A stretch of DNA of 64,000 nt, taken from Undaria pinnatifida. Its lineage: Eukaryota; Sar; Phaeophyceae; Laminariales; Alariaceae. A program made the position numbers and the translations under genes. The first letter of the stretch is position 1. Each line of letters opens with the position of its first letter. Below, in pieces: positions 3,166-61,744 of this stretch. The stretch is taken from NCBI GenBank assembly GCA_012845835.1, contig JABAKD010000020.1, positions 930,001 through 994,000 of the forward strand, in the 5' to 3' direction. Below the pieces are notes generated by a model that worked only from the letters and a program-made list of their open reading frames with translations, was not told where the DNA came from and searched no databases.

Positions 3166-4530
3166 CAACGCTGGCAACCCTGGCAGCTCTGCACCCAATG
3201 TACTAGTTCTACCAATGTAGCGCTACTGGCAGACATACATAGTGGTGGACGTGTACTGCACCCGCTCTACTTTTGGGCTTTTGGGACCCAGCGATAGCGA
3301 CGAAAACAAGCACATTTTCGACCAGTACATGTATATGAAAAGCGTGAGCGCGAAGCAGAATGATATACACGTAGCCTCATGCTCAATACCAGGTATTTAT
3401 TGACAGATTTTAGACGAGAAAACTCTGTGTGTGGTGCGTCTTTCCAAAGTACAGCATCCGCGACGGCCACAGCACAGCATTCACGACGGCCAAAACACGG
3501 CATCCAGGACGACCGCGCTTTACAAACCAAAGCATCCAACCACGGAACATCCCATAACGTTCGGGTTATAGCCTTCGGGTTAACCTTAGGGTTGTTAGCT
3601 TAGGGTTGGGGTTACGGTTCAGGCCGGGGTTAGCGTTGCCTCCCCCGCGACCACCACCGTGCGTATTTGAGCCTATCTGTAGTACAGTACGGCACCAAAG
3701 ACATTTCCTCATTTCCGGGAAATAGGTTGATCTAAAATCCGTTAATGCAGCCTCCTCATGCTGCTCCCCTGTCTCGTATCTTGTTACTTCGTACAACCAT
3801 GTACATGTTAGTACGTGTTAGTACATGTCGATACATGGTTGTAGTTCGGCCACTGAACGCATGGTGAGCCATTATGATGCTGAGATTGTCGTATTTTGTC
3901 GTCGGTTTCCCTCCTCTAATGTCACGGAGGGGTTACCTTGTGAGGCCAATGTGAACGGCCTACGTGTGTTGTGTAAGGATACAAGCAGCACAAGATTGGC
4001 ATGGGTACGATACAAATCGTAGGCTATGAAGCTCCACAACAGTTGCAGTTGTACGTGAAGCAGTAGTCTAGAGAGATGTAGAGTAGTCTAGCATCGTATA
4101 ATGTTATTTATAGTTTGTACAGGTTCCAGATATGCATTAAACATACCAGTTGTTTTGCTAACGACGCGTGGAGGTTTTTGGGCCGTTCGCGCTTGAGAAA
4201 AACACCGCCCAGAGCCGGGATGGCTAACTATTTACTACGACTTTTGTACTATGGCAGGCGCATATTATACGAGGACGAGGATGTGATATTGTTTTTTGTT
4301 TTCCACGCGATATTATCCAGGGTCACGAGGACAGTATGGGACATCCGTAATTGTCTGCTGGGATTGTACCATACTGCCGTTTGTTCTTCGTGTACCAGCA
4401 GTTGAGAGATACATAACTTTTTTAGTACTTCCGGTTGATCGCCAAAACATTGATATTAGTAGTCGTAGTTTAGTAGTTGTACTCGTATTTTTTAAATGAA
4501 AAAAATATGCTCCAGGTGGGAAATCGACCA
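3166..4530. other. No gene recognised; telomere-like patch
   Basis: No conserved ORF is visible. At 3558-3640 there is a degenerate run of GGGTTA, TTAGGG and GGGTT words resembling an interstitial telomeric repeat. One TACCAGGTA word lies at 3387. Confidence 0.45.
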
Positions 4531-4537
4531 TAAATGA

Positions 4538-4650
4538 TTGAGATTAAAACTCAGCTTTGCAAGGCTGCGTGTGATACCTCGATCGCGCGTGTTACGGGGT
4601 GTGTATACTGGTTGGTTGAACTTGACAATGGAAACGAACGTGGGACGTAC
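4538..4650 (+). repeat. Solo fragment of the unclassified 'R' repeat
   Basis: It shares the order AAAACTC..TTTGCAAG..GCTGCGTGTGATAC..CGATCGCGCGTGTTACGG with the arrays at 5330-6960 and 61745-62545 and with the fragment at 19778-19915. It is diverged. Confidence 0.5.
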
Positions 4651-5329: not shown

Positions 5330-6960
5330 GTGTTAGGCAACTACAGTGTAGCTATCAGGGTCAACAGGGTGATGTTATGCAACCTGTGCGCGGAAACTAT
5401 AAAACCCGTTTCTGAGGGGGACAAAATCTGACAGCTGTGGAAGGAAATGCATCCGTTTATCAAGTGAATCCTGTAAGTCGTATAACCGGTGAGAGGAGGG
5501 CGGAGTTTTTAAGGACGTGGGGGCCTGATTTTGATCAAAAGGGGGGCGGGAGGGGGGGAGGGGGGGGGAGGGGACGGGTGGGGCAGGTCAATTTGTGCGT
5601 GGAAACTATAAATCCTTCTTGTGGGGGAGGGGGGGGAGAATGTGCCGGGGGGGGGGCGGGGGGCGGGGGGCGGGGGGGAGGGCTTTAGGTCGCATATATG
5701 TAGGGGTTAGCTATATCGCGTGGTGCTAGGTCTAGGCGATGGTGCGGGAGGTGGGGAAGGAGGGGGCGTTGGGGGCGGGGATATATATGTTATAAAAATA
5801 AAAATACACTCCAGCTGTGAGATCGAAGATTTTGTCGAAACTCATCTTTGCAAGCTGTGTGTGATACTCCGATCGCGCGCATTACGGGTTGTGTGGCCTC
5901 ATTAAGGATATGGGTCGGCGACTCCCCTTGCAACTACAGTGTAGCTATCAGGGTCAACAGGGTGATGTTGGGCAGTCTGTGCGCGGAAACTCTAAAACCC
6001 GTTTTGAAGGGGACATAATCTGACAGCTGTGGAAGGAAATGCATCAGTTTATCAAGTGAATCCTGTAAGTCGAATAACCAGTGAGGGGAGGGCGGAGTTT
6101 TGAAGGGCGTGGGGGGGGGGTGGGGGAGGGGGGCGAAAAAATCATGTCGCACAGATGTAGGGGTTTGCTATACGCGTGGTGCTAGGTCTAGGCGATGGTG
6201 CGGGTGGTGGGGAAGAAGGGGGCGTTGGGGGGGGGGGGGGGGGGTTGCAGCAGCGGCATGGATGGCTTCAGAAAGATAATGAGGTGATAACAAGTACGTG
6301 GAAGTGTTTATTACTCTGGCAGATTTCGATGTTAGGTGGGGCGTTTGAGCAAGAGGGAGCGGGGAAGAGGGAGGGGGGGAAAGGGTTTTCAAGAGGTTTA
6401 GGTCACATATATTATATAATGCTAATTTTTATAATAATACTCCAGCTGTGAGATCGAAGATTTGGTCAAAACTCATCTTTGCAAGCTTGTTTGTGATACT
6501 CCGATCGCGCGTATTACCCGTATATATAGGGGCTTGCTATACGCGTGGTGTTAGGTCTAGGCGATCGTACGGGTGGTGGGGAAGGAGGGGGCGTTGGGGG
6601 GGGCGGGGGCGGGGGGAATGAATGAAAGCTATGTCATGGATGGCTAGAAAGATAATGCCGTGATATCAATTGCGTAGAAGTGTTTATTACTCTGGCCGAT
6701 TTCGATTGTAGGTGGGGCGTTTGAACAAAAGGGTGGGGAGAAGGGGGGGGGGGGGGGGGGGATTAATTGGAGCTACGGCATGGATGGCTAGAAATATACT
6801 GAGGTGATATCAGCTGGCTCTGGCAGATGTTGATTTTTGGTGGGGCGTTTGAACAACAGGGATCGGGGGGGGGGGCTTCAATATGTGCGCGGAAACTATA
6901 AACCCTTGAAGAGGACAAATCTGACGGTTGTAGCTAGAAGACATCCTCTTATATCAATTG
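5330..6960 (+). repeat. Degenerate array of G-tract-rich 'R' repeat
   Basis: Four recognisable blocks recur in partial tandem order. One block contains GTGCGCGGAAACTATAAA and TGACAGCTGTGGAAGGAAA. A second has CGCGTGGTGCTAGGTCTAGG followed by long G runs. A third has CATGGATGGCT..GAAAGATAATG. The fourth has CAGCTGTGAGATCGAAGATT. Block spacing is irregular (about 600-950 bp). Runs of 8-18 G separate them. The same family is at 54003-56600 (inverted) and 61745-62545. I cannot assign it to a transposon class. If the epsin first exon lies upstream, the array would be intronic. Confidence 0.65.
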
Positions 6961-7216: not shown

Positions 7217-7534
7217 AAATTCCGCTGTGCTATGCTAGAGGGGGCACCTCAAATCCCCCAGGCTACTAACGCGAGGAGCTCTGCACGTCGCCCAAAAACG
7301 GATAGTTATACAAACAACAAAATCGCGGTTCGATGAAACTCTCCCAGGAGCTATGTATATGTTGAATATATACACGTGTAAAGTACGAATTGGATTGCGC
7401 ATGTGTTGGGCGTTTGATTTCACTATTGATGTGTGGTTGAGAAGGGAGCCCCGTCAGTGCGAAATGTTGGGCTTAAACGTTCCCTCTCCCTTTATCACCC
7501 TCATATACCGTGGCGTTGCTTTATTCCCGAACAG

Positions 7535-10500
7535 GTATAGCTCAGTAATGCGGTTGGTGTGGAAAACCGTGGACTCGGCTCCTCGCAACTGGCGCTCGAT
7601 CGCGAAAGCTCTGATTCTGGTGGAGCACCTGACGAAGCACGGTGCTGAGAAGGTCGTGGGCGATGTGCAGCAGCACATTCACGATATCAACGGTCTGACA
7701 GAGTTCAGATACTACGAGGGGCACCTCGACAGAGGCAGCGGAGGTGCGGCATGTTTTGGCATATCGACCATTTGTTCCCGGCGTTGCAAAAACCGCCCAC
7801 TTCTCCCGATTTTGTTTTACTGCGCTCTGTTTTAGCTTGAGACAGCCTCCGAAAAGCAGGTGTATGTGTTGTCTGTTTTGTGTCATCTAACCAAATCGTG
7901 CCCCCCCTCGCCCCCAACCCCCTCCTGTTTTACTGGAAATCGTTCGAATGCCTTCCACATGCCTGTAAACGTGATATACCCACAAAATGCCAAATAAGTT
8001 CGCGAAAAAGCGCAAGAATTGTCGAACCTTTTGGGGAACCCCGATCGCGTACGCGCCGAGCGACTCAAGGCGCGTGAACTGAAGGCCCAATACAGCGGCT
8101 ACGGCTCACATATGTCCCCCAGACCTACGCTTGGGAGCCCGAGGGACTTCTCTTCGAGTCCCCGCGACATACACGGTGACCCGGGCGCAGGGACGAGTTA
8201 TAGCGACGAGGTAAGTGACGATTGGAGGGCCGGGTATGACCGAAGCCCCACCCCTCCAGATATGGAAGGGCAGAGGGTTATCGGCGGCAACGGCGGCGGC
8301 GCGATTTCCGACAAGATCGACTTTGACGCCGGGAGGGAATCGTACAGCGGTAGGCTCAGCCAATATCAAGAAAAGGAGAGGAGGGAGGCGAGCTCGCGCT
8401 CGCGCAGGTTTGTTCTGCGTGTTTTGCGTTTGTATTCAGCTGGTATGTTTCGCGTGTTGCGTGTTTTCATACCTGTTTTCAGAATTTCTGTTTTAGTGCG
8501 TTGCGGTGAGGTTGTCTCGTCACGCATTGCGAGCGGCTGCTTGTGAAAGCGCCGGCGGGGCGAGATAAGGTAGAAGCGAGCGAAAAAGCAGCTGGTCGAA
8601 CCCATGCCAGCGACCAAATAATGATCGTATGTATAACGTTTTTTTTGTTAGTTGTCCACCACCTCCGTCCCAACGGCCTCTGCTAAATAAAACAAGCGAA
8701 AAGGGCGCCTCGTGCGGGGAAATAAACGTCAGCAAATAACGCGCCGCGTTTAGAACCCACACTTTCCGCCTTATGTGACGTGTGCCGTGCCCAACGCTGA
8801 CACCCCGCTCCCCCGCAGGGGCAGCAAGGATAGCGGCACCAGCCACCCTGGAGACGCCATCCCCTCGAGCGGAGGCCAGAGCCAACCGAAGGGTGGCAGA
8901 GGCGGGGGCTCTTCGAAGAAACGAGACGAAAGGAGGCCGTCTGCCGCCAAGGACGCGAGCAGCGAGCCGGACCTCCTGTCCGGGGCTGACCCATTCCCAG
9001 CCTCAGCGCCTCGGCCCGCCAACGACGACTTCTCGTCGTTTGCCGCTTTCGAGCCGCAGCCCCTCCAGGGCGGTGTTCCTGTCGCGAGGGGTTGGTACGC
9101 AGGGGCAGGCGGGGGTGCGCCTCAGCAGTGGGCTCCTGAAGCCGGAGGGCAAATGGTTCCTTACGGACAAAGTGCCCCTGGAAGTCAGAACCAGAATCAG
9201 CAACAGCAGCAGCAGCAGCAGCAGTTTCAGGGCCAAGCTGTCTGGTCTCCGCAGGGTCCGAACGGGTTACAGCCTGGCCAGCAGGCACCACAGGTTTTGG
9301 GGTATGGTCAGAACGCGGGGCAGGGATACGATGGGCGGGGTGGTGGGCAGGGGCAGCAGCACATGCAGGGGTGGCCACAACAGCAGCCAAATGCGCAACA
9401 TCTGCCGCAGCAGCATGGGCAACCCCAGCAGCAACAGAGCTATCAGCAGTACCAGGTGCGGCATGAAACAGACGGTGGGACGCGCCAGGTTTTCGAAGGC
9501 AGAACGGGCCGTTCTAGCTTTTGCGCCGTGTTTTCTACCCTTGCTCTCAACCACTTTAGTTTTAATGGCGACATGTGACTAGTCCAACTCTGCAACTCTC
9601 CGACTATTTTGTGCTGGAAGCATGAATACGCTTCCTCAGGGGTTGAGAGGCAACCGCTGGTTGCATTCAATCAAATTTTGGAGTGTAGTCAGGTATGAAA
9701 AATGGCTGCGATGGAGGCGTGCATGTACCGACTTTGTCAATCTTGCCTATTAATAGGCATGTGTTGATTTCTCGAGTGGAGATTGGGAAAAGAAAAGGTC
9801 GGCCGCCCCGCCCCGCCCTCGCCCATCGTTCTACTCCCTACGACGTTGCGAATCCTAGCTGAAAAACTTTGTCGCCGCTTCATCTTTGGTGCGTCAGTAG
9901 TGCGCGCCGAAACGCTGTGTTTTGTTGCCACCGTCGCCATTTGGTAGACGAAGGTGGGGAAGACAGCCAGACCCTTCATAGTCCAGAGTACCTGGTGAGC
10001 CATAAGGCAACTTCTTTTGTTGATGGGGCTTGCACACGCATCGATTCACACAATTTGAAACGGCTAAAAACGTTGGTGCGTTGATGGTATGCACGACAAC
10101 AAGAACACACATACAGAGATGATATGTGGTTTGGCCATAGTGCGCGCCAGGAGCGGAGAGTAGGACTGATGCGATGCTGCCGTGTGGGGAGTGGCGTACG
10201 AGTTGTTTCGGTGCGAGCGCAAAGAGGGTGGACGCGCGAAGACATTACCCGCGAGTGTTGATAGCGGAGAGCGATCGCTCAAAAGGGTGCTTCAAGAATC
10301 TTATGGGGAATATGCTTGAAAGGGTGCTTCAAAAAATTGTTGAACTACTAATTTGCTTCAAAACGTCTATTCCCGAGAGAGAGAACTGAAGAGTAAACCT
10401 TTAGAAATAATTGTGATCGGAGGCACAAAAATGTACCGCGAGAACGAGGTATTGGAAAGATTGTAGCGGAGCTAATCGAGAGAGGAGTGTGTGCGTGATT

Positions 10501-10861
10501 GGGTGGATTTCGATCGACTGCCGTTTCCCGGTTCGTTGATGTGGTGCACGCTTATTGCCCAATGTCAGTGGTAACTTGGTATCCCTTTCCCCCGGCCGTG
10601 TTCGCCCTCGTTGCTCTCCAATGATCCAGCCACAACAGGCATACCAGCAACCTCAACAGGCGTACCAGCAGCCTCAACAGGCGTACCAGCAACCTCAACA
10701 GGCGTACCAGCAGCAGCAACCCTACCCTCCTCAACAGCAGCAGCTACAGCAGCAGCTACAGCAACAACCTTACCCTCAACAGCAGCAGCAACAAGTGCAG
10801 CAACATGTACAGCAGCAACAACCAGCACAACAACAGCAACAACCTCGGCAGCAGCAGCAGC

Positions 10862-10914
<53 letters not shown>

Positions 10915-12015: not shown

Positions 12016-15000
12016 GAGCCCCTCTGGGAGATTTTGGAGGCCGCTTGCTTGGCGAGGGTTAGGGCGGGGAGGACGGAAGCGAGGGGCTCATTGCTCATGT
12101 TTCGTCTGTGGGTTACTTGGTCTGTGTCTTACAGATATGACGGTGCGTTGAAGTGTTTGAGGGAGGGTGTCATTGTTGTTGTTTTTGTTGGTGGAATTAG
12201 GAGTGTGTTCGACGACCATTTGATGCGTGATATCTCTGTTGACCGTGATGGGTGGCTCGTACCCACTGTGTGAAGTTCGTTGTCGTGTGGTGACTTTTTT
12301 TCCATGGCGACCTGCGCAATATCTATGATATTAAATACTGGTAGCACCTTCGTGCAGTACTCTTCTTGTCGCGTCGTCGTGTCTCGTAATATCATGCCAA
12401 GCTAGCGCCTAAATATAAGGAGCACAAGTGGTGCTGACGTCTGAGTAACTCGTATTTGATGGACGGGTACGAACCCGACAGCTGCTTTATGCCGTAGCAT
12501 CCAGCTTGCGGTGTGCCCTCCGCTGAAACGACGTGAGTAGCTATCAAGGGCGAGGAATTACCCGGGTATTTGCGGCGGTAATTTTGCCGAGATTTCGCCG
12601 CGAGCGCGTGACCACGATTTTGCCGTGAGTAAATTAATAAAAACCCCAACCGAGGGAAAGTAGTATTCATAGCAGATATCATTGCACGTTGGTAGCGATA
12701 CTGAGGCGGGGCAATAATGGCGGGGGGAAGCACGGGGGGGGTCGTTGATGGCCCCTCTTTCGTGGTGCACGTTGTACGGAAAGGCTCTACCTTGCTCGTG
12801 GTATTGAGCGTTCTTGAATGTTTTAAAGTTCAGCAGAATACACAATGACAAACGCAACGCGTTCTCGCTTCAATGAGTAGGGTTGTGTTGGCTTTAGATT
12901 GTGACGTTCGATAGCATAATAGTACGCACCTGGTAAAGTGCATGTTGTGTTGGATATGTCTGCATCCCTCTATGGCTATTGGTGAGAGCGTAATTTTTTG
13001 CAAAACTAGCGTTGCCGAGTTGTAGTCCAGTACGAGTACCTGCCTTTTATGCTGCTCGTGAGGTCTAAGAGGATGCTGTACAGCGCGCGGAATGCCGCTT
13101 TTTTTTGCCCTAGACACGACAACGGCTTTATTTTCGTATGCTATTAATAGTGTGCTTTGCTGTTCTGCCCCTCTGGTATTCGGTGTTACTGTAGGTACAC
13201 TGTTCCGTAACTTGTGCTGTAAATTGTTCGGTAACCTGGGTCCACTGTCCTACCCACAGCCCACACACTTGCACCACCCCGCCCCGTGTACCATCTCATC
13301 TCTGATGGGGGGCGACACCACTATGCGAGTGTTTTTGTTTCTTGGGAACCCATTTGGAGATTCAGAAGGGAAGCGTGTTGACTAAAAGTGGCAATAATTA
13401 CAGCATCGGCCACCCGAGGCAGCCGTCGTTGCAGGGGTAAAGGATGTGTCCTAGGTACAACATAAGATGGTATGATACGGCATGCGCGCAGGATGAAGGC
13501 ACTTGTACTTTTTTTGCACGTTCTCCTAGGAGGTTGATATGACCGCACGCACTTATCGCTGTTTAGTGCGCGTTCTCTGTGCGGTCCGAGCTGGGCGGCC
13601 CACTACCCCACCGCGGAAAACGTCGGAATCGAAAACGTCGGAATCGTGTTTGTCCATGAATACCCCAAGCTGCGCAATAGGTATTTATCCAGCCAACCCG
13701 CAAAAGCGGCACGATTACCGATTCGTGCTTGCGTTTCTGTGGCTGGACCAATTTTTCAAGGAGAAAAAATAACTGTCACGAAACTTTTGTAATTATATCA
13801 AGCTGGTCCGCCGCCACGCAACAGCGGCGGTCGCTGTTGCAACGTCCAACGTCCTAAAGGAAATGCAACGCGACGACTAAACGCGAACAAGGCTTGAGAT
13901 TCCGCGGGAGACCCACATCATTGTGTCTAGCTTGGGTTGTGTTTGAGTATGGCAGTGCCAACCCAGCATCCCAATTACAGATTAGCTGGCATAACCAAGG
14001 CAAGCGCTGTTCGTTCAATGGTTGGTGCAGATATATGGGCTATTATCGTTCACAGGTGTAGATGGGGGGGGGGGGGGGGGGTACTCAATTTGTGCATGGC
14101 CGTAGTCGTATGACCATAGACCCTTGCATCCCTACTACAAGTATTCCGGGACGAAGCACTTCGGGTTTTCCCCAACCAGGCAGACATTATTGCTTGCACC
14201 AAGCGCGAAGCGCCGTGGCGTTTTCTGCGAGTCGCATGAAGGGTGAACTGCATCCTTCGAAGAACCGCTCGTAAGACGGACTTGGGCACCATGTGCCTAC
14301 TTTCTTGCTTATGGATTACATTGCCAAGGAGTTACTTTGTTTTCTGGTGTGACGACTCCAGCGGCGGGGGGGGGGGGGGGGAAAAGGGGGGGGCAACAAG
14401 GCACCAACACGCTACGAAAGGCCCGTTGGTCCGAGCGAATAAGCCCACCTCATGCAGCAGAGTTTTTTCTCTCGATCGTCTCGCTCAGAGCAACGCAGAG
14501 GCGTTGAGAGCAACGACGACGCTCGGATCTAGTCACGATGGACCTAATCGCGGGCAGGCCTTACTTGTAGACTAAACCGACAAAAGCAACTTACACTGCA
14601 AAAATGATCCCACACCACCAAATTCCAGGTGGTGGTTTGGCCCCAAAAACGTGGATGGAGTAGTGTTAATCTACAAGTATACCTGGTAAGGGTTAAAAAA
14701 ACGTCGCCGTGTGTCTTTGCCAACCAACGCCAAGTGCAACAAAACTCCATGAAGACGTTATCTTCCACGCCCGCGGACAGAGACCCCAAACATCGTCTTC
14801 GGATAAGGGCGGGGGGGGGATTCGGGGCACTGCTAACACGGCTGCTGCTATCGCGGCTACTGTGCAACACGGTAGGCGACGTGGTTAAAGGGGTATAGGT
14901 GGCAAAACCGCGGCGGAGAAAATATGTTCCCGAACCGTAACTGCTGTAAACACCTGGTACGTGATTTTGTTTTCGTTTTTCGTTCCCACCAAGATATCAT

Positions 15001-15493: not shown

Positions 15494-18400
15494 TCACATG
15501 AGTCCTTGGCGCGCCAAATCTTCGTAGGTGCGACGGTTGAGCACGTTTCCTTCGCCGTCCTCGTACTCCTCGTTGTCCTCCGGATTCCACTGCTCCTTGT
15601 CCAGAGAGTCCTTTATCTTAGCGTAAAGGTCTCGCGCGTCCTGCGTATATATAGAAGACAGGCAAGCAAGAGACGACCGCCACCATCGTTACCGGTCCCG
15701 GTTAACCAGTAAAGATTGGGGAGACAGCTACAGTACGCAATTTTTTTCCAAGACTATGATTAGTAGGGTACTACGAGAGTATATACTCTTGAGGTACCCG
15801 GGTACCAACACTACTGTCTACGTTGCTCCTACCCGGTAGATACCCGGTTACGTCCAGAGTACGCACCCGACGAAGAGAGTATAGCCTATTAATGCCATTA
15901 CAACTGGAAACCCGTTTTTGGGGAATACTAACTAGGAATTGGTATAGAGAGGGGTTTGGGGGCTTCAAGGGGTTAAAACCCTTGCACATTTCCTTTTCCG
16001 TTTCCTCTTGCTGTTGTTCCCGCATCTACTCATCGAAATGATCTGTTTCCTTTTTTTGTTCCCACATCAACTCATCGAAGCTACCTACAATGTAGTGCGT
16101 CGACGTTAGACTGGCTCCGAAGTTCCAGAAAACGAAAAAAAGGACAAAAGTACTCGCTTAGAGTAAGGAGCACAAAATCAAGACAAACTCCATGCCGGCA
16201 CGTTTGATGTTATTCCCCGTATACATAATGCTGTGTAGGGCTATCCAAATATAACTTCATTTTTATTTTTTATTTTTATTTGTCATCCCATATATATATA
16301 TATATATATCATCTTCGCACTTTTTCTTGCTCTTTCTCCCTCCTAAACAGGCTCTTCTCCCCCTTCCCCACCACGATACGCGCCTCAATTTATGTATTAA
16401 GAGAATAATCCAGCACTTTCTTCCCTCGTCGACTCGCGTCGAATTGTGCTTACTCACGCTATAAAGCGCTCTCGGCAGTTGGTGTCTAGAAAATAAAAAT
16501 ATCCGCAACGAGATTCCAACCCCTGACACCAACTCTGCTTATTAGTAGTGTTCGAGGTTAGCCACCAGACCACCAGGACAAACCGTGGCCACCGGCAATT
16601 GACTGTTGCATCTACTGTAAAATAAAACAATAGCGAGAAACGATCGCGCGCGCTTCGCCACTTGTCCTAACCCCGGCGGAGCCTTGACATCTCCACATCT
16701 TCACATCTTCGGCCGCCTCTTTGACGGTCGCACACCACCTCTTGATCTACCTGGTACATTGTTTGCCGGCGAAAGCGTCAAGGACCAAGGAAAGCACCCC
16801 CACCTGAATAAGGATGATGTCGTGGAAGTGTTTCGTGTTCGGGATTCCCAGGCACCGCATACCGTGTGCATGGCGCCACTCCTGGAAGTGGCGGTCGAAG
16901 TTCCTGCTCGGTCAAGAAAAAGCAACAAAGAGCAACACACACAGCAGCACACGAAATAATCAAAACAACGCACACGAACATAACCACAAATGCAATAAGG
17001 TCATACGTGTGCGGTCGAACATGTAATATCAACAACAAAGCGGAAAAAGGAACTCGTAAAAAAAAGGAGCAAAGAAAAAACCATGGTTAGCTCGTCTCAA
17101 GACAAAAAGGCTGTGTCAACGTGCCATCACACGTCCAACTCGTCCCGCCGACGCCTTTTCATGTCCATACCAGGTATTACGTTTTCCTGCTCGCAGTGCC
17201 GAGAACATAAAGCATAAAAGCGAACGGTAACAAACCGGCAAACCATTGCCGGCGGGTGCACCATCTCGTAAGCACGCCACGCTATATTTCGTCTTCAATC
17301 TCGACATACTACGTGCCCACTGTTGTTGTATGCCCCATGAACATCGTCGACAAGCGAACCACGACGTAGTGGTACAAACTCACTGCGTGGTTGAACCAAC
17401 GACACATAAAAAGAAGGCGAAAAAAACGAAGAACAACACCAAAAAATAACGCAAAAGACCAAAAGACCAACGCAAATCCAAAAAAAGGAAACACGATTAA
17501 AACAACGACGCAAAAAATACAAAAAGCGCAAAACACGTCCACAAAACGAAAAACACAAGAAACAACAACGCAAAAACTCGCGACACAACAAACATGAAAA
17601 CCAAGAACGCAAAAAAACGAGAAAAAAAAACAAAGAACACAACAACGCAAACACTGACGACGCAAGGAAAAAACGACGCAAAGAAAAAAACGACGCGAGA
17701 TCCAAGCAAGCATCGGAACAAGCGCGTCAGAGTCGGTCCGCCCTCACCTCCGACCCTTGTAGCTGAAATCGCCGCAGATCTCGCACTTGAATTCCACCCC
17801 GAGACCGTGCAACTTGTACAGCCAGTAGGGGATGGGCTTGCCGTCCCAGCCGAGAGGGAGGTTGAGAGGGTTGTAGATCGGCCCTTCCTCGTCGCTCTCT
17901 TCCTCCTCCTCCTGAGTCGTCGCGCACCCGACAGCAAAACATAAACGAAAAAAGCATTATGAGAAAGGCCGTGAGCGTTTCGCCATCGTCACTGATACTA
18001 CAGTAGGCTGAAATGACAAGTTCATGAATATCACTCTCCACGGAAATACAACGACCGTTGGTGCACAAATACATTACTCAAACGGCGCCTACATCGTCTT
18101 CCTCTGCGCGTCCAAGTGGTTTGAAAAAAAAAAACTCAGATGCGATTGTCAAGCTGTTAACAGAGATGCCTATAATACGACGGTCGGAGAATGCCACCGA
18201 CCTCGTTGAACTCCGGGAGGGCTCCCTGCTCCTCCTCCTGAATCTCCTGGTCACGCTCCTCGACCGTTCTCGTCTGTTTTTTGTCCACCTGCCGCTTGGT
18301 CGACTCCAACGTGTCTCCCTGAAGTTCAAGGAGGGCCTTCACCTGGAACGAGGAGACCGGGGAAGATAAATGGGAGTTCCAGTGAGGCGTGGAAATTTGT

Positions 18401-21400
18401 TGATGCAGCAAATATTTAGCAGGGGCACGAGGCAGTCGTCACCGATTGAGACGCGCGCGATTGCTAGGCTTTGACCCAATAAGATCGAAATCATTTTCGC
18501 TTAAAATGACCCTTTTCTCTTGTGTTCTCGCACATGCGCTATACTTCGTATAGGTCTGCTATATTTCGTATAGGTCTTGGGGTGCTTACGCGAATTTGAA
18601 GAAGATTCGCATAAAATTTGGGCCCTTTTCGTGTAAACTCTGCGACTTTTGCGAATAATCGTACCAGGGACACATCAAGGCAACAAGGCAATCCGCTTGA
18701 TGCTTCAAAGCCTACGATCGCGACCACGATGGCCTCGTGAAAAAAAACAGCATTGAACTCTTGCAACAGGCAACAACCAAACGCTTTGGGTAGAGCTGAC
18801 AGTCACCTGGATTTGACGGCTAGTAAAAGTGATAATGGTGATACAGTTTTTGCTTGCGCGTGACACATGCTACGCTACAGATGCACCGTTTGTCCCCCTG
18901 CAAGTTTCTTGACTTGATAAACTACTCTACACCTCACCCAAAATAACACTTATTGTGAGTAACCTAAAAGTGCAAAACTTTATGACCAAACTCGCGGAAT
19001 AGGTATATAAAAAGTTCATCTGACAAAACGAGAATGAACATTGCGACGATTTTGGGCTAACGAGCCGCCTTATTCACATTTTCATTTTCCCATGAGTGCC
19101 GCCTCTAAGCAGCGCCCCCTCATTCACAATTTGCTTTGGCCATAAACTGCTGCGAATCTCTACCGTACCATTGGTGTCGGCAAAGTAAGCCAACCAAATC
19201 AACCAAATCACTGTAGCCTAGTTGGACACAAAGCCACCAAGAAAATAACTGCGAACCATAAGCGCAGAAGTCAGAGCACTCCACCGATTGATTACCACCG
19301 AAGGGACCAATTCATAACCGTACTGTGATATATACACTGTGATGCACTGCCATACCTAGCAAACTTCAAACTAGTCAACAGTCGGCGACTTACTATTACT
19401 GCACTATTAGTATCATTAATAGTACACTACCTGGTATAGTATTACTGTAGTATACTACTAGTATACTAACAAATAGAATAGTCAGCCAACTTCAAGCCTT
19501 AGCAAAGGGAGTACCGGGCATGGGACAACACGCTCGCGAGAGGGAGGGCAGGTCTACACCGGCGGCTACCGCCCTCAATCCTGCGCCGAAGCCTGCTGTA
19601 GTGGTACACACCAGCGCCAACGATCCACCCCACGGCAGAGGATAATGGCTTCCCGCCGAGTACCGTCTGGTGGCTTTCTGGGCGCAAGGCATCTCGTTGC
19701 CATGCGGCCACGGTAAAAGAGATCGATCGGGAGCGTATATACCTTTACCGGGTAGCATTTGAAAAATAATTGAAAAAATACATTGGGCTGAGATCGATAA
19801 CTTCGTCGAAACTCATGTTTGCAAGCTGCGTGTGATACTTCGACTGCGCGTGATAAACGGGTGTGTATATGCCCTCGTGAAAGGAGATACGCCGGTGACT
19901 CGCCTGCCGATACTAGTCAATCGGGCGAAGACTTTCAGCCTATAATCCTTCTGCACACGGAAGCTACAGGTAACGGCTGCCAAAGGAACACAAAAATAAG
20001 GACGCATCCGCGGCAGAGGCCCAACAAGCTAAGTCACGGCAGGGTTTGATGCCATAAGCAAGAACTTACCCTCCCTTAACGGATCGTGTGTTCTCACATG
20101 TGCAAGTATCTGGGGTTTAGAGTGTCTACGCAATTTGAAGCAGGTTCGGAAACAAACCGAGCCCTTTTGGGTGCAAATATAGCGAATTTCGCAAGGTCAC
20201 GGAAAACATCAAAAATGAATCATCGCATATTGGGTAACCTCCTGAAACGATGGACCCATCAGGGTCGCTAAAACTATCAAAAGCGTTTAGACACCCCAGC
20301 CAGTCGACCGCCATGCCCACGAGAGGAAGCATAAGCCGTAACCCCTCAACATTGTTAGGGCAAGGGTGAGTTGCGGAAAACGACAGGCATCGTACGCAGA
20401 GCCCGAGCCAAGCAGGTGGACAAAAGACAACTCCTGTCATGTGTCCACACACAGCGACGATGCATGCCCGTTTCAAACTCAGCGCGAGCACCAAACAGCA
20501 AGTGGCGGCGGTAAAGTTATCGGAACAGTAGAGTGGAGGGGTACCTTAGAACGGTATAAGGGTAACTTGGAGCAGTAAAATAGGAGCGGTTACTAGGAGG
20601 GGTAAGTAACTCGGATCGGCCGATCGGTAACTTGGATTGGAAGGTTATCGCGGTAACGCCTAGGTAGACAAGGTGCTTGAGCTCAGGCTACCTTGGGTCG
20701 GTACACTTCGAACGGTGAACTCGAACAAATTTTGCAGCCGTAACTTGTAGCAGTAACTTCAAAGTGGAAAGCTAGGCCGGTAACGCCAACATATATAATG
20801 CCACGAGGAACCACCCACCGCGACGAAAACACACACGTGAAGCCGCGAAATCATCGCAGGCCTCTAGTGAGACTCCGCTCAACGAAGGAACATCAGATAA
20901 CGGGGCGGGGGGAAGAGGTCTCAGAAAAGTTGTCCGACTTCAGGAGGGACATGCCACCAAGCTCGGACAAATGACCAACCCCCGTGGGTACGCAGCGGTA
21001 CAGCCAGACCAACCAGCGTTCGAAACATCTCAATACGGTAGTGTTTGTCTTAGTCCAGGTTCGACGAGACACGTGATAGCTGCGACAACATGGTGGATGG
21101 TCCACACAAACTCATCATTATACATTCATCCAGAGAAAGTTCCCGGGCGTTCGGGAATAGGGTAGGACTTCAAAGTCAGGCATACTTCACGTTTCAAGCA
21201 TTCTGTCACAGCTGGGCAAGCGAAACCTCAGCGTGCACCGAACGCCTCGTCCTGCTCACGTCCCCACAAGGCAAGCAACAGAGACGAGCGTGTGTCACTG
21301 CAGCTCGTACTTCTCCTATCGCAATACTTGCGAAGCACCAGCAGTGAATGCCAACAGCGACAAATTCCCCTGTATGATAGCTTCCCGCGACGAAGGTGGC

Positions 21401-39335: not shown

Positions 39336-39364
39336 TGCATATGCGACTCCTCAGGGTGGGCTAG

Positions 39365-42720: not shown

Positions 42721-42988
42721 AAGCTTACAACGGCTCTCCATTACCAGGTACTACACGATAACTCTAACAATATTAATATTAGACTAGTTAAGACTAGACT
42801 AATACCTCGTAGTGCAGTGTTTTTTTCTTTGTTCCTAACTTTCAAATTTCCTGTGGCTCCCCGTTATTTTATGCCTACAAATTGGAATTGAAACCCCTCC
42901 TCCGGCAACGACCTGCTCGTCTGCATGCCTACTGCTACAGAACATCAGCTCCCGAAGCTCATTTCTCTCAGCTCTCAGCAAGGGAGGA

Positions 42989-43684
42989 TTGACGAAGCAC
43001 ATGGCGATAAGAAAGAAAGACAGCAATAGCGAGCACCATGCGGGTTCTCTGCACCTCGTAACGCCAACCGCGGCATTAGAAGCCTTGAGAGAACCCACTG
43101 CCGGCGTGGACCTGATGGATCGCCACAACCTCAATCGCTACGAGGGAGAGAGCAGACGAACCCTGCGCCGGGGCATCTCGCATTTCCTCTCCCCTCTGCT
43201 GCAGGCACTCATCAAGGAGAAGCCACGGATCGCTCTGGCGGAAAAGGCGGAATTTGCAGAGCTGTTGAGCGAGGAGCTATCTGGGAGGCCCATACAGGAG
43301 CTGTCAATCGACCTGCTGCGGCGGTCCTTCATGATTCGAAGAAGAGTTGCGAGTGACTCGTCTCCTGATGATGACGACGAGGCACCGGGATCCGGCAGAC
43401 CACCGGTACCCCCTGACGTGCCTTTCGCGGAGCAAACCACCAACAAGGCTTCCCCTGCGTATGCGCGGAAGGTAGGCACCAGGACTGCGAATCTCAGCTC
43501 TGTCAGCAATGTATACGTTCGGTTGTTCATTCGATGTTGCACTATTTATATTAGTACCAGGTATACCCACAAGGTATGGTATTTAACAAGAAACTCTCGA
43601 CGCGGAGGTTCTGCTGTAGTTCTTAACAATGACTACTGCTGTAGACTACCTGGTGGTCTATTAATAGTACCACAGATAGCTTAG
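42989..43684 (+). pseudogene. Possible piggyBac-type transposase fragment
   Basis: A 231-codon ORF whose first part reads PTAGVDLMDRHNLNRYEG, followed by RRTLRRGISHFLSPLLQAL. In piggyBac-type DDE transposases a G-V-D-x-x-D segment followed by Y and a basic, hydrophobic helix marks the region of the last catalytic Asp. The rest (acidic DDDDEAPGSG and a Pro-rich stretch) is not informative. The last third runs into simple sequence with two ACCWGGT words. No TTAA-flanked ends were found. It could instead be an unrelated or spurious ORF. Confidence 0.25.
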
Positions 43685-46889: not shown

Positions 46890-46984
46890 TTTCTTATAAG
46901 GGCTGTCGATCCCATTCTGACTCTGCAACCCGAAAATCTATCTCACTTTCGAATTCGGACACGCTATTATATAAAGTGGCCTAC

Positions 46985-47859: not shown

Positions 47860-47862
47860 TTA

Positions 47863-49515: not shown

Positions 49516-49518
49516 TTA

Positions 49519-50861: not shown

Positions 50862-50864
50862 TCA

Positions 50865-51965
50865 ACGAGATGAAGACTGGGAAAAAGGAAAAAAATAGGA
50901 AGTACAGGCTGAGCCCAGATCCCTGTGTCTTACTAGGTGTCCTGTACTATATTGATGGGGACTTATTGGCCATGATTGACTTAACCGTCATCACATCAAA
51001 TAGTTGACTACCGACGGGTTTTCACGTTTCGTAGAATGGAGGCTGAGGGTAACTTGTACCGGCAGTATAATGTCATACCACAGATACTTGTGGGTAGAAT
51101 TGTGTATTTTGGGTCGGCAGTCAGTAGATTGTTTTGGGTGCTGACTAAGGTCTCGACGCGTGGTTGTTGTGATGCTGGCGTGGCGTAGAGCTGCACGTTG
51201 TAGAGCTGATGGCGGTACAAGTATGCCGATAGTATCATGCTCGTATAGCTAGATTCGAAGCTGTGTCACTTTCGAAAAAGCTGGTGATGCCGTTGCTGGT
51301 CTTCGCTCTTTGCTCCAGACTATATATAGCAGTAGGGATGATTGCCCCTTTCAGCAGTGGCAATGATTTACCGTGGTTATCGCGAAGTAATTCAACGTGA
51401 GCATACTTGTGAAGTATTGTTCAGCGGGGTAATCAAGTGTACTGATGTAGGAGAGGAGAGGTTCAGATACTTGGTCAAATGATTCATGCGTCCGCTGTCT
51501 ACTGTCACCGAACGAAAGAAGCGAACTCGTTTGTTTTACAGCTGGTGTCCGTACCAGGTGTGCACCCGGGATGTGGTAGGTCGTGTTGTACGACCATATG
51601 AGTACGTACGCAAGCCGCCGTCATTTGAACGAGTCATATAATGGATATGCGACGTGCGTGCTGCCATTGGGGAGGACTATGGTGTAAACCAACGGTTTCT
51701 GCGATAGTGAGTGAGTACTGAAGCCCATTTGTTGCCGATGTTGTGGGTTCACGGCAATGCCGCACAAAGATTGAGTGTTTTCTCCCTTACGGCCTTCCAG
51801 TACTAATACATGCTTCGAAGCATGCCGTTAGTCCCACTACGTCACACCCCTTCGTTCTCGCATGCATGATTATGGCCAACGAGCACTACACGCATTGAAC
51901 TGATTCCGATATTGGCGGTTCTATTGAGGAATCTGTGCACAGCCTAACCCTGTGGCGTACGTACC
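50865..51965. other. Upstream flank of the bromodomain gene
   Basis: No recognised ORF. Promoter elements could not be identified. One TACCAGGT word is at 51552. Confidence 0.4.
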
Positions 51966-54002: not shown

Positions 54003-56600
54003 TAACCCCGCCGCGACCTAGCACGTATAGTATAGTTCCTCCCAGATACACATTCATACCACCTAAAGGGGTTTGAATCGCACCGCCTCGTTTTGTTCTC
54101 TCCCGCCGCCCCACCTAAAAGCAAAAATCTGCCCAGAGAAATAAAAACTACCAGACAGTTGATATCACCTCATTACCTTTCTAGATGTCATCGGCGTACA
54201 ACACGCAAACTTTGTTTATGAAAGAAGCGTAACAACAGCTGCCGACGTGGTAACGTCATCTAAGAGGGTTTTTCCTAACGAGAACACGAAAACAGCACAC
54301 GCCAATCCTGACAAATGCCGCCAAAGGTCCTAACGTGAAAAAAAAACATAAATTAATGACCAAATACCACGATTGCTGACATTTTGAAATAATGAAATGT
54401 CACGGTTAAATAAAACAAAAACGCCATTTTGTCAGGAATAGGAACCCTTGGATATGGAAGATGTTAAAACTATTCAAAGTCCGGATTCCTGACAAATACT
54501 TCGAAGTATGTACCTAAAATAAAATCTGCTAGATTAATAAACACTACACCCGAAGGGTGCGCCAGCGAGCACCCGAAGGGTGCGCCAGCGAGCACCCGAA
54601 GGGTGCGCCAGCTAGCGTTGGGCTGCGAAAGCAACTGAATTAAATCGACACACGACGCGTATGAAAATACGTGGAAGTGTGGTGAGCTAAAGCTTTATTT
54701 TTCCCCATCCGCCGGAGGATATATAAAAAAAAAAAAAAAAACTACCAGGCAGATGATATCACCTCAAATTATCCATCCAACCAGCCATGCCGTAGCTCCA
54801 ATTCATTTATTTCCGCCCCCCCCTCCTTCCCCACCACCCATAACCCCGCCGCGACCTAGCACGTATAGTATAGTTCCTTGTCCAGGTATACATTCATGCC
54901 ACCTAAAGGGGTTTGAATCCCACCGCCTCGTTTTGTTCTCTCCCGCCGCCCCCCCTAAAATCAAAAATCTGCCCGGAGAAATAAAAACTACCAGACAGTT
55001 GATATCACCTCATTACCTTTCTAGCCGTCCATGCCATAGCTCCAAGGGTCCTGCCGACGACGCCAATTGTAGTGGTGCTCCGAGTGGGGGATGCGGGGTT
55101 GGTCGGTGCTGGGAAGCGTGCTCCTCATGGGTTCCGGTGCCCTTGTTTGGTCTTTCGTCATGGCTCGCTGGATAGACTCAAAAGCTTATACATTATTTCC
55201 TCTACATTAAACTCTAAAAGACAGACAAAACATGCCTTTGGCACATGGTAGCGCAGGGCAAAGCAAGTAGAGCAGGTAGAGCAGGTAGTGAGATGTGGGG
55301 CGTCCTGCTTGTCCTATCATCGTCACCTACATTATCGCCCATCTATGATGGCCTTGACGTGAATGTGACATCTAATGTCACGTGGTTTCACCTCAACCAT
55401 GACATGGTTTCACGTCGAATCTATAAACTATCCTTCTACGGAGGGCACTCCATTACAATACCCCCCCCCCGCCCCCCCCTTCCTCACCACCCGCACCACC
55501 GCCTAGACCTAGCACCACGCGCATAGCAAGCTCCTAACATATATATGTTTTTGCTACCTAAAGCTGTTAAAAATCCTCCCCTTCCCCCCCCCCCCCCCCG
55601 TTTCGAACACTCCGCCCTCTCCTCACCGGTTGTACGACTTACAGGATATACTTGATAAACTGATGCATTTTTTCGTCCACGGCTGTGTCAGATTCTGTCC
55701 CCCTCAAAAACGGGTTTAATAGTTTCCGCGCACAGATTGACTAACCCCACCCTGTTGATTCTGGCACAAGCTACACTGTAGTTCCAAGGGGAGTCGCCGA
55801 CCTATATCCTTAATGAAGACACACACCCTGTAATACGCGCGATTCGAATATCACGCACAGCTTGCAAATGAGTTTCGACGAAATCTTCGATCTCACAGCT
55901 GGCGTGTATATTATTTCTATAATATGTATTGGATGAAGGGGGCCCAAAATCGATTTTGAATATGGAAAATGTCGAAACGATTCAAAGTCCGGATTAGGGA
56001 CAAGTACCAGCCAGGTACCAACCTGGTATCACGACCCGCAAAAGTGTCACGTTTTTTTGTAACCATATTAACAATTCCTGACATAATTTGTGTTAAATTG
56101 TAAACACTTGTTTGCTGCTTCTGGTTGCATTGTTTATTATTTTACAAAATCATTCTAACGACGTTAGCTGTAAGTTCGACGAATTTAGGGTCGATGTGAC
56201 GGTACTCCGAGCGGGGGATGCGTGGTTGGTCGGTGTTGGGAAGCGTGCCCCTCATGGATTCCGGTGTCTTCGGTTGGTCTCTCCTCATAGCTCGATGTGG
56301 CTAATGATAGGCAAAAAGCTTATATACATTATTCCCCTACAAAGAATCCTAAAAGACAGGCATAACACAGGGCTAGGTAGGGTAGGGCACGGTAGTGCAG
56401 GGTAATGCAGGGTAGTGAGATGAGGGGCGTCCTGCTCGTCCCATCATCGTCACCTACATTTTTGCCCATCTATGATGGCGTTGACGTGAATGTGACATCT
56501 AATATCATGTGGTTCCACCTCAACCATGACGTGGTTTCACGTCGAATCTATAAACTATCCTTCTACAGAGGGCACTCCATTACTTTGGTGTTATAATGCT
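54003..56600 (-). repeat. Inverted, partly duplicated 'R' repeat region
   Basis: It carries reverse-complement blocks of the 5330-6960 family. The block at 54003-54187 recurs at 54840-55037 (CCGCCGCGACCTAGCACGTA.. and CAGTTGATATCACCTCATTA). A second pair, 55074-55456 and 56201-56583, is about 383 bp, offset by 1,127 bp (ATGTGACATCTAAT..CACGTGG). C-runs are frequent. No gene is recognised. Confidence 0.7.
54547..54615 (+). repeat. 23-bp minisatellite, three units
   Basis: Three consecutive copies of a 23-bp unit starting CACCCGAAGGGTGCGCCAGC. Each contains the small hairpin CACCC-GAA-GGGTG. Confidence 0.92.
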
Positions 56601-56970: not shown

Positions 56971-57431
56971 TTAGGCCACCCTGAATAGTCGTATAGATGC
57001 AGATCACCTGGCATTCAAAGGATGTCAACAAAACATCCAGAATTGGAAAGGGGATCGAAGATGCGGCTGTTCGAAACAAACGAAAATGAGGCTATAGATT
57101 CCCCCACACCTCGTAATAATGAGGCTGAAATGCCTCATTGCAAGATATACAACCCTATCTACGATGGAGCTCAACATCGATCATCTTGGCAAGCTGCGCA
57201 CTATATTTATCGCCCCCGTCTTTAGTAAGTTTCAGGAATCAAAACCTATCATCATATATATATATAATAAGATGAATTTACCTATCTCATGTATGACCAA
57301 TAATAGTCTGATTATCTGAACGCACTTTCTTTGACGTATTTTGAATTTTTTATTAGTATACTATTAATAATTGAATATCATTAATAAGTGCAGCTTTATT
57401 ACTATTATTATAGGTATTAATATTAATATTA

Positions 57432-57530
57432 CGGGGGACCATAGTAAATAGGACCAAATATTGTTAGTCAAAATAGGGAAATATATTGGTTTTTGTCTGT
57501 ACCGTAGGTCCTATTTACTATGGTCCCCCG
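57432..57530. mobile_element. Tc1/mariner-type MITE, 99 bp
   Basis: 24-bp perfect terminal inverted repeats beginning CGGGGGACCATAGTAAATAG, flanked by TA on both sides (57430-57431 and 57531-57532). TA duplication and small size fit a non-autonomous Tc1/mariner element. Confidence 0.85.
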
Positions 57531-57532
57531 TA

Positions 57533-58711
57533 ATAGTAGGGTATACAGGTTTGGTCTACCTTATTAATAAAACAGTAGTAGATAGAGTGAAGCGTCCTAA
57601 TAAGCACAGTGAGTGCCCTATTAAGCACGCCATAGGGTTGTACTTGTATGTGAGCTTTAGTTGTTGCACTACTTATTACTACTCTCTTACTCGCGTCCAT
57701 CCGCACAACTAACTTTTTGGTTATAGAAAGTATAGTCCTACACCGCCGCTTCCATAAGGCCTCAGCCCTTCGGCGAATAACCTAGCTAGATAGTACCAGG
57801 TATATACTCCGAGTAATAGACTAGTATAATAATAGGTGGTGTGGTGTATGACAGCAGCGGAATGAATGCGATCGAAAAATAATGCGACGGGGTTCACGAA
57901 TTATTCCAGCACAGACGACGGATCTGATGCAGTATACTACTCTTCTCTTACTTGTTGTATAGACAGCACCACACATAATCACACGAAGAAAGAGAGGAAA
58001 CGACTTGGCCGACACTCTCGCGCCGATAATACTATTATTAGACTATGTTACTATGAACGATGAGCAGCAAATAAATGTATGATGTTGCGTCGAACGTTGG
58101 TGTGGTGTGTGTATTCATGTGAACATCGAAACGGTATACTTCGAAGTATACTATATGATGTCCAGATATACAACAAGGTATTCTTCGTAGATCGGTGTTA
58201 TTAATAGGACTCTTCGCTCCGCGGGCGGCATTCGCCGCCCGCCACACGCTCTCAGGAACTTCAATGAAAAATGCAACAACTTTTGTCAAACGGGGGCAGA
58301 AGAAGAGGTTCACACGAACGATTGGTTGATGGCAGGTGCAAACTGGCGACTATGATGATGAGGCCACACGGCCCCCGCCGCGATGGTCCAGGAAAACAGC
58401 CCGGACGTCACATGCATGATGAGTAGAATACCGTATTTATTTGTGAAAAGGCCCTCTATCCCAGAACGGCCGAAGTCGCGAAGATGTTGAAGCGGAAGAT
58501 CCCTGGAGCCTTGGTCCCTCGTCGCCACCGTTACGGCCGGTGTAGCCAAGCGTTTTCTTTAGTTCGTTTAGCAAGGAAGGAGAGGTGCTAGAGCTCAAGT
58601 TTAACCAAGAGGGGTCATAGAGGCTATCGTCCCTACATGCCTCGCCTCACGTCCTACCCTAGGTTCATCACATATTATGTGCCTGGATATATGCGCCTCT
58701 GGTAGCTTTAA
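57533..58711. other. No confident gene; one weak exon-like ORF
   Basis: AT-rich. 58310-58549 on the - strand encodes 79 residues including FTNKYGILLIMHVTSGLFSW, a possible membrane helix preceded by K-Y-G. This faintly recalls DUF1279/FAM210 proteins, but no partner exon was found. Confidence 0.3.
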
Positions 58712-58800
58712 AACCCCTCTACAACTTGAAACCCTTTTTGGGGACAAAATTACTTGGATATAGTATACGGAGGGGTTCGGGGGCTCTAAAGGGGTTAATT
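58712..58800 (+). repeat. Dispersed repeat, copy 2 of 2
   Basis: Counterpart of 15893-15985. It ends GGGGGCTCTAAAGGGGTTAA. Confidence 0.6.
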
Positions 58801-61744
58801 AAGCACTCGCGATGTGAACGTCTGTCTCGAAATTTGCGACTTGACGAGTTCGTACGGAACTTTTCTTTGTAGGCGTAAGATGAATCCGCACGGGCGCTGG
58901 ATGTATGCTGGATGTCGATGGGTGGAAATAACACAGTTTATCGTGGTCGAATTATTGTGTTCAGCCAAACAACCACACGACGACTACGTTCTGGTAGACG
59001 TGGGATCATTTCTACAATATACCTGGTACCTGGTACTATTCAACTATTGTTCTGGTGTACTTGCGATTGTCGGTCGTTAGATCACTGCTGTGTCCTGTAT
59101 GTACCCTGTACAATGTACGGCGACGACGTAACGGACGGCTAGTATGAACAATAAATATCATAATACAAGTAACTTTGTAGTTGCCTCGGTACTTGTAGTG
59201 TTGAGCAGAAACAAAAAAAGGCGGTTTCGGTTCCCGAGCAAACTCTCCCCACCCCGGGAAAAAAACGCCTTCACAATTGTCTTACATTTTTGAAACACTT
59301 GCGCGCGCCTCGCGGATGTTGCACACATCATACTTAGCCTGTCGGAAACAGTGGGGTGTGAGATACCATCGAGAGCGACGACCCCAGAGTGATACGCACG
59401 CATTTCCATGATGTCGGATCAAGTAACTCGGGGCGCTATTGCTAGCGTCATGGGTGGAGCCACCGGCGCCACCGGCTTCAATCCAACAGTACAGGTGTGA
59501 GTTCGAAACTCTCTGTTTAGGACAGTCTCTGCGCAACGCCCCTCACCCCCGCTAATCTTGAGAGGTAGAGCATGTCCTGTTGGAGGGAATGGGGGCTGAG
59601 GGTAGGGTTAACCGCCCTATTCGCTGGCCGGTGACTGTGTGGGGCATTGATGTTCGCACGGAGCTGCGGGAGAAGGCGGTGCGCCGGGCGAACAGGATGG
59701 AATGGATGGAGTGATTCACACAAATTTGAATTGCTGTGAATCCAAGCCTAGTCACCCTGCTGGGCGTCTCGCGCGGTTCTATGCGCGGTCAGTCGCCGCT
59801 CGCCACGAGCAGAAGATCCGAAGGGAGTGCTCCGCACTGGCGTGATGTTCTTCACATTGTGTTTTCCAGGCGTTTTCCTCTTCTGTTGTTGGGAACGCGG
59901 TGCTTCCTACTGCTCTTGAAAAGCCTGCAAGCCGCAGCAATCGTTTCGTATTGTTGCACATGGAGCCACTCTGCGAGTTTGAGGTTTGGTTGCTGTTCGT
60001 GGTGGACGGAGGCACGAAGACACAGCAGCGTACAACCCGACCTGCTGTGTTTTTGGCCCCCACGCGTCCGTCCCATTTGCGTGTCCAAGGAAGGTGGTGG
60101 GGCCGGGCTAGTCCCGCCAGCGTAACACGGACTTGGCCGACTGTAGTTGTAATATGTACCAAAGCACCGCAGCAGCAGCTGTCGAAATCACTGCTGCTGT
60201 ACTTGTGCTGTACATTTTTACCGCTGTACCTGGTACCTGGTATTTGATGAAAATATTGTTTTACAAGGTATGTGCGTACACTGAGTGCACCATCATTACG
60301 CAGCGGCCAAAACCCCAAAAATCTGCTGTAATGTTCCTGCTGGACGCGATCCCGGTTACCTCTTTTTGAACAAGCGAACGGGATCTCGCGCGTACCAGAT
60401 ACGAAGCCGTAGAAGCGCGTAGGATCCTACCCCAACCCTACGTGTGCACTGCGCGTGGTGATGGCTCCTCCGTTGGCTAACAACGTCTAGCTCGGACTCT
60501 CGGCCGAGCTTTTGGAGGTTGGCGCAGTCCCCGCTTTTTTTCTTGCCGCATGTCGTCACAGGTATCACAGTGGAAACCCAACGCCATGTTATTTGGGCTT
60601 GGACAGGCTTACTTTACTTGTTACACCTTGCCTCCAGCCAGGGAACTGGATCCGGACACCTCTCCCAACGGCTGGCGGGGGGGGGTGCGCCGAGGTCGCC
60701 CTACGTACACATACCAGAATCCTATTATTTCGCCATTTGGCTTTACTGTCTGCTACTGATATTAATCAGCCTGCTCGTATCATGCGACGTCTATTTTTTG
60801 CTCATACTCGTACCGCATTTCAAAGTCAACTTTTGGGTCAGGGGTCAGGGGTAGAGGTGGGAACGGGCACCTTTAAAAAAGAGAACGGTTTAAGTTTAAA
60901 CCATTTTTTGGAAAACCAATACGAGGCGCGTACGAGAAGAGGGTTTTTGAAAGTATAACCGCGGTCCACGCCGACTTGCTGTGTAAAATTCTGACAATAT
61001 GAGTACCACTATTTACCGAGGACGTGCCCCGCTGTTAACAAACGTCACTTTGGCGCCCAGGCCCAAAGTCGCTTTTTGTGTGCCCTCACCACCTTCACCA
61101 GCCGATTTTCTCAAGTGTCACCTGGTAGTTTCTTATATTTCTCGGCTGATTTTCACTTGTTTCCATAGTTTCTTGTTTCATCGTTTTTCCTTACGTCCCG
61201 CGAGGCCACACCTCATGTTGACGTTGTACAGATCTGCTGCATCCGAACACTGCTCGTACTACCCTCCCGTTGCCCTGCGTTCAACAGCGCTCACGCCCTG
61301 ACAGCGGCGCCCTCAGCCGTGCCGTACGACTCCAATGGCAACTACATGAGCTGTTTGTGATTCCATCGTCGTGGAGCACGGCACGTCATTAGTCATACTC
61401 ATACCTAGAACTTTAGTGTGTGCTCTGGTTGTGACGACCCCGCCCAATGAACCCAGTCCCAATCTCACAAGCCCCCCGCGTTCAACGGGCGACTGATGCA
61501 GGACCGCGGGCGCAAGTTGTGATTTTGACGTTTCTTACTATGTTTCACCCTACGGAATGACCTCGTTCCTCATATTGGTTGGGCGTCGATCGCGGCTGTT
61601 TCTTAAGTTATTGTTTCTTCTGTTTTTTCCTGTTAATTGTTTGATATGTCCTTCTCTCACGACGTTCTTATTATTTTTTACGAAAGTTTCAGCGAATCTT
61701 TCTCAGCATAATTATTTCTTACTCTAAATACAAGTATAGTATAT
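58801..61744. other. No gene recognised
   Basis: Several ORFs of 60-180 codons overlap on both strands without family signatures. Doubled TACCTGGTACCTGGTA words occur at 59020-59035 and 60227-60242. Confidence 0.4.

Follow-up and report, generated by a model that had tools for sequence, protein, structure and literature searches.

The TACCWGGTA word in the window and in the genome

The stretch of DNA analysed here, called the window, comprises 64 kb of the Undaria pinnatifida genome (contig JABAKD010000020.1, positions 930,001 to 994,000) and contains many copies of a short palindromic word, TACCWGGTA, whose probable origin in the excision of a DNA transposon is the subject of this report. 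The original prediction, made by eye, had listed 24 copies of an eight-letter form of this word. Every one of these starts was verified, with ACCTGGTA at 15 of them and its reverse complement TACCAGGT at 9. Extension to TACCWGGTA was found for 17 of the 24 copies, as had been estimated, the centre on the + strand being T in 11 and A in 6. These 17 copies compare with a mean of 0.32 and a maximum of 2 in 100 dinucleotide shuffles of the window, in agreement with the strong enrichment first noticed, and with 0.35 expected under a third-order Markov model. By contrast, the CCWGG core alone was not enriched (126 occurrences compared to 136.6 expected, standard deviation 11.1) and is thus present at its expected frequency, which singles out the TA-flanked form as the special one. 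A Dcm-like CCWGG methylation or restriction site is not supported by these same counts, since CCWGG is neither over- nor under-represented.

Exact matches to TACCTGGTA are located at 14680..14688, 16748..16756, 19428..19436, 26243..26251, 26633..26641, 31593..31601 and 36103..36111, and exact matches to TACCAGGTA at 3387..3395, 17168..17176, 36756..36764, 42742..42750, 43555..43563 and 57794..57802; all are considered here as putative footprint words. The two overlapping doublets that had been reported are real. They start at 59020/59027 and 60227/60234, match TACCTGGTACCTGGTA exactly over 59020..59035 and 60227..60242, and belong to a class that was counted genome-wide. In each of them the two words have one TA in common, as expected if the word is composed of TA, CCWGG and TA. 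The other copies, all on the + strand, differ from TACCWGGTA by a single letter. One transition is found in TACCAGGTG at 9450..9458, a possible decayed footprint, and at 51552..51560, and in CACCTGGTA at 12927..12935, 14951..14959 and 61119..61127, these five matches being assigned to a decay class, and one transversion is found in the matches TACCAGGTC at 23537..23545 and AACCTGGTA at 56020..56028.

A single dispersed repeat, suggested earlier as a way in which all copies might be explained away, does not account for them, because the flanks of the window copies are nearly information-free outside the word and its immediate neighbours. Just after TACCWGGTA, mainly A is scarce and C in excess; otherwise the flanks carry little information. 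Other over-represented words exist in the window, mostly derived from simple or tandem repeats. The words ATTAATAG and CTATTAATA are also over-represented there, with 16 and 14 occurrences compared to 1.2 and 0.34 expected, respectively.

The genome (511 Mb, 68 contigs) was then searched with the reversed pattern as control. TACCWGGTA was found 85,263 times compared to 3,475 times for the control, a 24.5-fold difference that bears out the proposed check on genome-wide frequency. The estimated excess is about 82,000 copies, corresponding by extrapolation to about 0.3% of TA dinucleotides. The density is one word per 6.0 kb in the genome compared to one per 3.8 kb in the window (Poisson P 0.045), a slight enrichment of the window over the genome. 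In a 124-kb sample, consisting of the window and six 10-kb stretches chosen by place, the word was observed 30 times for 0.74 expected; among the 16 words of the form TA-X-W-X'-TA with two-letter complementary arms, the runner-up reached only 6 for 1.05 expected in the same sample. A loose clustering was also detected, as 27 of 99 gaps between words were shorter than 1 kb compared to 18.9 expected.

Regarding the other contents of the window, an ENTH-domain match (7353-7835, + strand) is probably part of an epsin-like gene and is followed by a glutamine-rich frame without Pfam match (10555-12015). On the - strand, 46005-46928 and 63191-63997 are LINE-like remnants, and a weak reverse transcriptase match, under the cut-off, was obtained at 46464-46928.

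Insertions at TA, doublets and decay of the word

An all-against-all alignment of a first set of loci yielded no CCWGG empty-site pair, and repeat-specific patterns were therefore used instead. One TA of an abundant repeat (ATGTAGGGG...CTATACGCGTGGTG) varies in length at 214 places, of which 100 were listed. Locus L051 (C1:19208203) carries ATGTACCTGGTAGGGG at this TA. When L051 was aligned, 11 copies spanned the site, 6 of them with ATGTAGGGG, leaving an exact 7-bp gap, and 5 in a longer subfamily. Two copies with the empty site are found by alignment on the + strand of the window, one with ATGTAGGGG at 5683..5773 and a second at 6017..6308. The filled-site pattern, with up to 3 mismatches allowed, was detected at 3 places genome-wide (CCTGG+TA, CCAGG+TA and CCTGG+CA) and at none with the reversed control, so that both CCTGG and CCAGG are represented at a single TA of the same repeat family, in a single orientation; the first of these places (L051) was aligned and the second and third are known as pattern matches alone. 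Comparison of the sister repeat copies indicates that a plain TA preceded the CCWGG insertion. A mobile element, one of the possibilities raised in the original prediction, is probably involved, but the word is better interpreted as a trace of its departure than as its target, since the sister copies show a prior plain TA. In the longer subfamily, several listed variants of the L051 repeat carry TACCWGGTA as TATACCTGGTA. In one tandem array (L031), the third unit has 7 extra bp, CATGGTA. A ATGTATATCWGTTAGGAGC repeat subfamily was also observed, in which A and T are both frequent at the centre of TCWGT and the orientation is fixed. A search with 19.9 kb of window DNA was swamped by the repeat at 27249-29418, which holds no TACCWGGTA. 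This repeat contains GACCCG arrays and has tens of genome matches among those listed, mostly at 70-88% identity.

These alignments also bear on the idea that the word was spread inside transposon copies as a terminal or subterminal motif, and not by excision. Inherited TACCWGGTA copies do exist in some repeat families (L031, L033-L042), and elements with DDE_3 and DDE_1 domains are present in the genome. Nevertheless, CCWGG insertions distinguish some repeat copies from others, the window copies have unrelated flanks, only 2 of the 30 words of the sample fall in repeats and, among 45 TACCWGGTA sites tested, site-spanning alignments were obtained only between overlapping loci of one same place. 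We consider such a carried motif very unlikely.

A second word of similar build, TAGWCTA, was found 107,556 times genome-wide compared to 41,033 for its control, and 30 times in the 124-kb sample compared to 5.3 expected, 3 of these 30 being in the repeat-covered part. Alignment of sister repeat copies showed TA in some and TAGWCTA in others, at loci including L009 (3827), L052 and L053, and inspection by eye revealed in L052 one TAGWCTA doublet plus one more single word inside 25 bases. At the TA of CTATATCCTTA/TAANGA, 521 length variants were counted, compared to 1 in the control. Among the 100 listed, 30 are GWC insertions (15 GAC and 15 GTC), 2 are the doublets GTCTAGAC, and roughly every second variant consists of just one additional A. 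The window itself contains, at 1129..2413, a candidate element of 1,285 bp that is TA-bounded, with 15-bp perfect inverted ends GACGTATTTAAGCCT beginning GAC; judged by these ends, it fits the type that would leave TAGWCTA. No Pfam match was obtained for it in six frames, and no second full copy was found in the sequence examined. In scans of viral contigs, the GAC end was seen in 4 stretches and the doublet in 9.

At the TA of CGGAGTA/TATCACACA, 182 variants were found and, among the 100 listed, the insertions were G (33), CG (10), CAG (6), TG (6), CTG (3) and CA (2). CAG and CTG together represent 9 of these 100, and the single G corresponds to a GTA duplication; footprint types may be mixed here with tandem duplications. 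Overall, TA footprints left by two or more families seem to characterise this genome.

Doublets sharing one TA, TACCWGGTACCWGGTA, are present 3,654 times genome-wide compared to 2 in the control. Pairs of TACCWGGTA at the 26 other spacings from 0 to 25 bases total 2,832 (control, 21), and the shared-TA spacing is thus 33 times the mean of the others. This excess is weaker than it first looked and is partly trivial, because a neighbour that shares the TA requires just seven new letters. Among 50 doublets listed, the two centres were alike in 34 and unlike in 16. Plain tandem duplication could produce the former and does not produce the latter.

Doublets with like centres (34 of the 50 listed), together with the predominance of the single G, a GTA duplication, among the variants at CGGAGTA/TATCACACA (33 of the 100 listed), could be taken to mean that short templated or slippage insertions made during break repair generate the word without any transposon. 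However, slippage copies adjacent letters and so would not give CCWGG, whereas the inserted letters observed are fixed (CCWGG and GWC), bounded by TA and present with both W at one site. This origin appears to us highly improbable.

The near-variants of TACCWGGTA were also counted. One-letter transitions numbered 27 compared to 6.5 expected and arm transversions 14 compared to 12.5, and the centre was changed to C or G in 3 cases for 0.5 expected. The excess variants are mainly transitions and occur at all four arm positions, most strongly at the outer T (T>C, 13 compared to 2.2). With 29 perfect copies, the arm excess of 22 would, if neutral, amount to approximately 0.09 changes per site.

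Excision as the probable origin of the word

From the sequence comparisons described above, most TACCWGGTA copies are very probably footprints that a cut-and-paste DNA transposon with a TA target left behind when it was excised. The element, whose ends would start with CCAGG or CCTGG, would insert with duplication of the TA. Upon excision, five terminal letters would remain on each flank as overhangs. As the CCAGG or CCTGG overhangs of the two flanks would be complementary in all but the central position, and would there form an A:A or T:T mismatch repairable either way, end joining and mismatch repair would yield TA-CCAGG-TA or TA-CCTGG-TA, and the element would re-insert elsewhere. The doublets would arise whenever a TA of an older scar received a further insertion. 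Three observations are those expected of a footprint. The word has TA on both sides, and the enrichment concerns this TA-flanked form, not CCWGG alone. It is an insertion relative to an empty TA, at one aligned place and at two by pattern, in one repeat family. Finally, both outcomes predicted for the central mismatch are found at one oriented site, namely CCTGG and CCAGG and, for the sister word, GAC and GTC at 15 each of the 100 listed.

A different view is that the word is the binding site of a dimeric protein, such as a transcription factor, an origin-binding protein or an insulator protein, selected at tens of thousands of places. The palindrome with its free centre, the loose clustering (27 of 99 gaps), the avoidance of abundant repeats (2 of 30 sites), the additional TA six positions beyond the word (+6; 16 of 78 sides) and the outer T being the position most tolerant of change (T>C, 13 compared to 2.2) are all compatible with it. 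By contrast, a binding site is at odds with the CCWGG+TA insertions that separate sister repeat copies, with an excess of near-variants that affects each of the four arm positions and consists mainly of transitions, and with the existence of TAGWCTA, a second word of like build with many insertions; moreover, 85,263 copies exceed, in our judgement, any expected regulatory repertoire. We therefore regard this explanation as improbable, though less so than the two considered above. The enrichment can be understood without the binding or replication function that had been suggested for the word, though such a function may apply to some copies. Neither function accounts for the short insertions, for doublets that share a TA but differ in their centres, or for the mainly transitional decay.

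Several results weigh against an excision footprint. The repeat-covered part of the 124-kb sample holds 2 of the 30 words but 29% of the TAs (P 0.003). Outside the word, TA is over-frequent at +6, on 16 of 78 sides compared to about 8% elsewhere, with varied spacers; this excess, which may reflect a target preference or decayed doublets, is not by itself predicted by excision. Some doublets are probably tandem duplications, given the excess of like centres (34 of the 50 listed, P 0.015). The direct CCWGG insertions are confined to one repeat family, and CCWGG was found in none of the 100 variants listed at each of two other abundant-repeat TAs. The approximately 3 filled places per roughly estimated 16,000 copies fall below the 0.3% mean for TAs, and in one subfamily TACCWGGTA is a 9-bp difference and not a 7-bp one. 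Of the three TAGWCTA words in the repeats of the sample that could be aligned, the first is a clean insertion of 5 bp, the second shows a gap of 4 bp and the third is not an insertion. The approximately 210 kb examined revealed no element that has CCWGG at its ends. Finally, the five letters of CCWGG lie outside the 2-4 bp reported for Tc1/mariner footprints (PMC7913693). The scarcity of insertions in repeats may mean that these repeats are younger than most CCWGG activity, or that targets are chosen differently.

Within the excision reading, a more specific scenario has, in our opinion, slightly under an even chance of being right: a now rare or extinct TA-target lineage with an unusual five-letter stagger would have made about eighty thousand excisions or moves and left few copies, its history being preserved chiefly in scars, each of which would record an A or T repair choice. 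In our best reading the word is a fossil trace of transposon excision; scars of this kind are known, but not usually in such number or of such length. Footprints are usually studied few at a time, whereas the counts obtained here point to about 82,000 in a single genome. If this is true, they would constitute a record of excision that is independent of surviving copies and a route to lost transposon families, the empty sites could be used for dating, and the centres would provide a natural experiment on the repair of A:A and T:T mismatches. It would also be a warning for motif finders, which could label TACCWGGTA a transcription-factor site.

Candidate sources and comparison with known systems

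Inverted pairs of the type TACCWGG...CCWGGTA were examined as possible termini in the same approximately 210 kb. The only perfect pair, at L009 4242-5826, was rejected since its outer flanks match too, so that it is not a terminus; the pair in L032 is weak (10/15), and the window pair 57794-59028 was taken as chance. DDE_3 gave 8 partial matches in the genome, and four loci (L015-L018) have TA-bounded ends TGGTCC; these elements of about 1.75 kb were discarded as the source because their ends are not CCWGG. DDE_1 gave 82 genome matches. Inverted repeats are present and the candidate ends TACAGCAG were seen in 2 of the 8 loci read, none of which begins with CCWGG, so that these loci were discarded as well. 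Transposase_1 gave no match in the genome, though the control genomes gave none either. Two further structures were observed in the window, a TA-bounded inverted repeat of 1,430 bp with ends CAGGACACCTA at 49517-50946, possibly a further TA-target element, and a TA-bounded hairpin-like element of 109 bp with 33-bp arms at 57427-57535.

Among the titles listed in searches of openly licensed papers, there was neither a motif paper for TACCTGGTA or TACCAGGTA nor a census of fossil excision footprints, and the accessible portion of the main text of an Ectocarpus transposon paper (PMC12477816) mentions neither footprint nor excision. The excision footprint of Sleeping Beauty, a Tc1/mariner element, is TAC(A/T)GTA (PMC4378557) and originates in donor-site overhangs (PMC7827188), and a fish pogo element is reported to leave footprints of 0 to 4 bp (PMC9976928).

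TACCWGGTA resembles the Sleeping Beauty footprint in its flanking TAs, its odd palindrome and its A or T centre. The two differ in that Sleeping Beauty leaves three letters (CWG), whereas TACCWGGTA has five (CCWGG), is fossil and genome-wide, and has a source that is only hypothetical. Because five letters exceed the 2-4 bp range, the word was not filed as Tc1/mariner, though it would work like one. The elements with DDE_3 (L015-L018, about 1.75 kb) are likewise TA-bounded, with terminal inverted repeats and a partial DDE_3 domain, but their ends TGGTCCGTGCAC would give no odd palindrome. The pogo-like DDE_1 elements, considered with the CWG insertions, share the TA target, CAG and CTG being found at a repeat TA (9 of the 100 listed), and differ by their candidate ends TACAGCAG, which are not CCWGG. 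The TAGWCTA class is alike in its TA-bounded odd palindrome, both W at one site, its shared-TA doublets and its empty sites; it differs in having three letters, insertions in abundant repeats and a candidate source type within the window itself (1129-2413).

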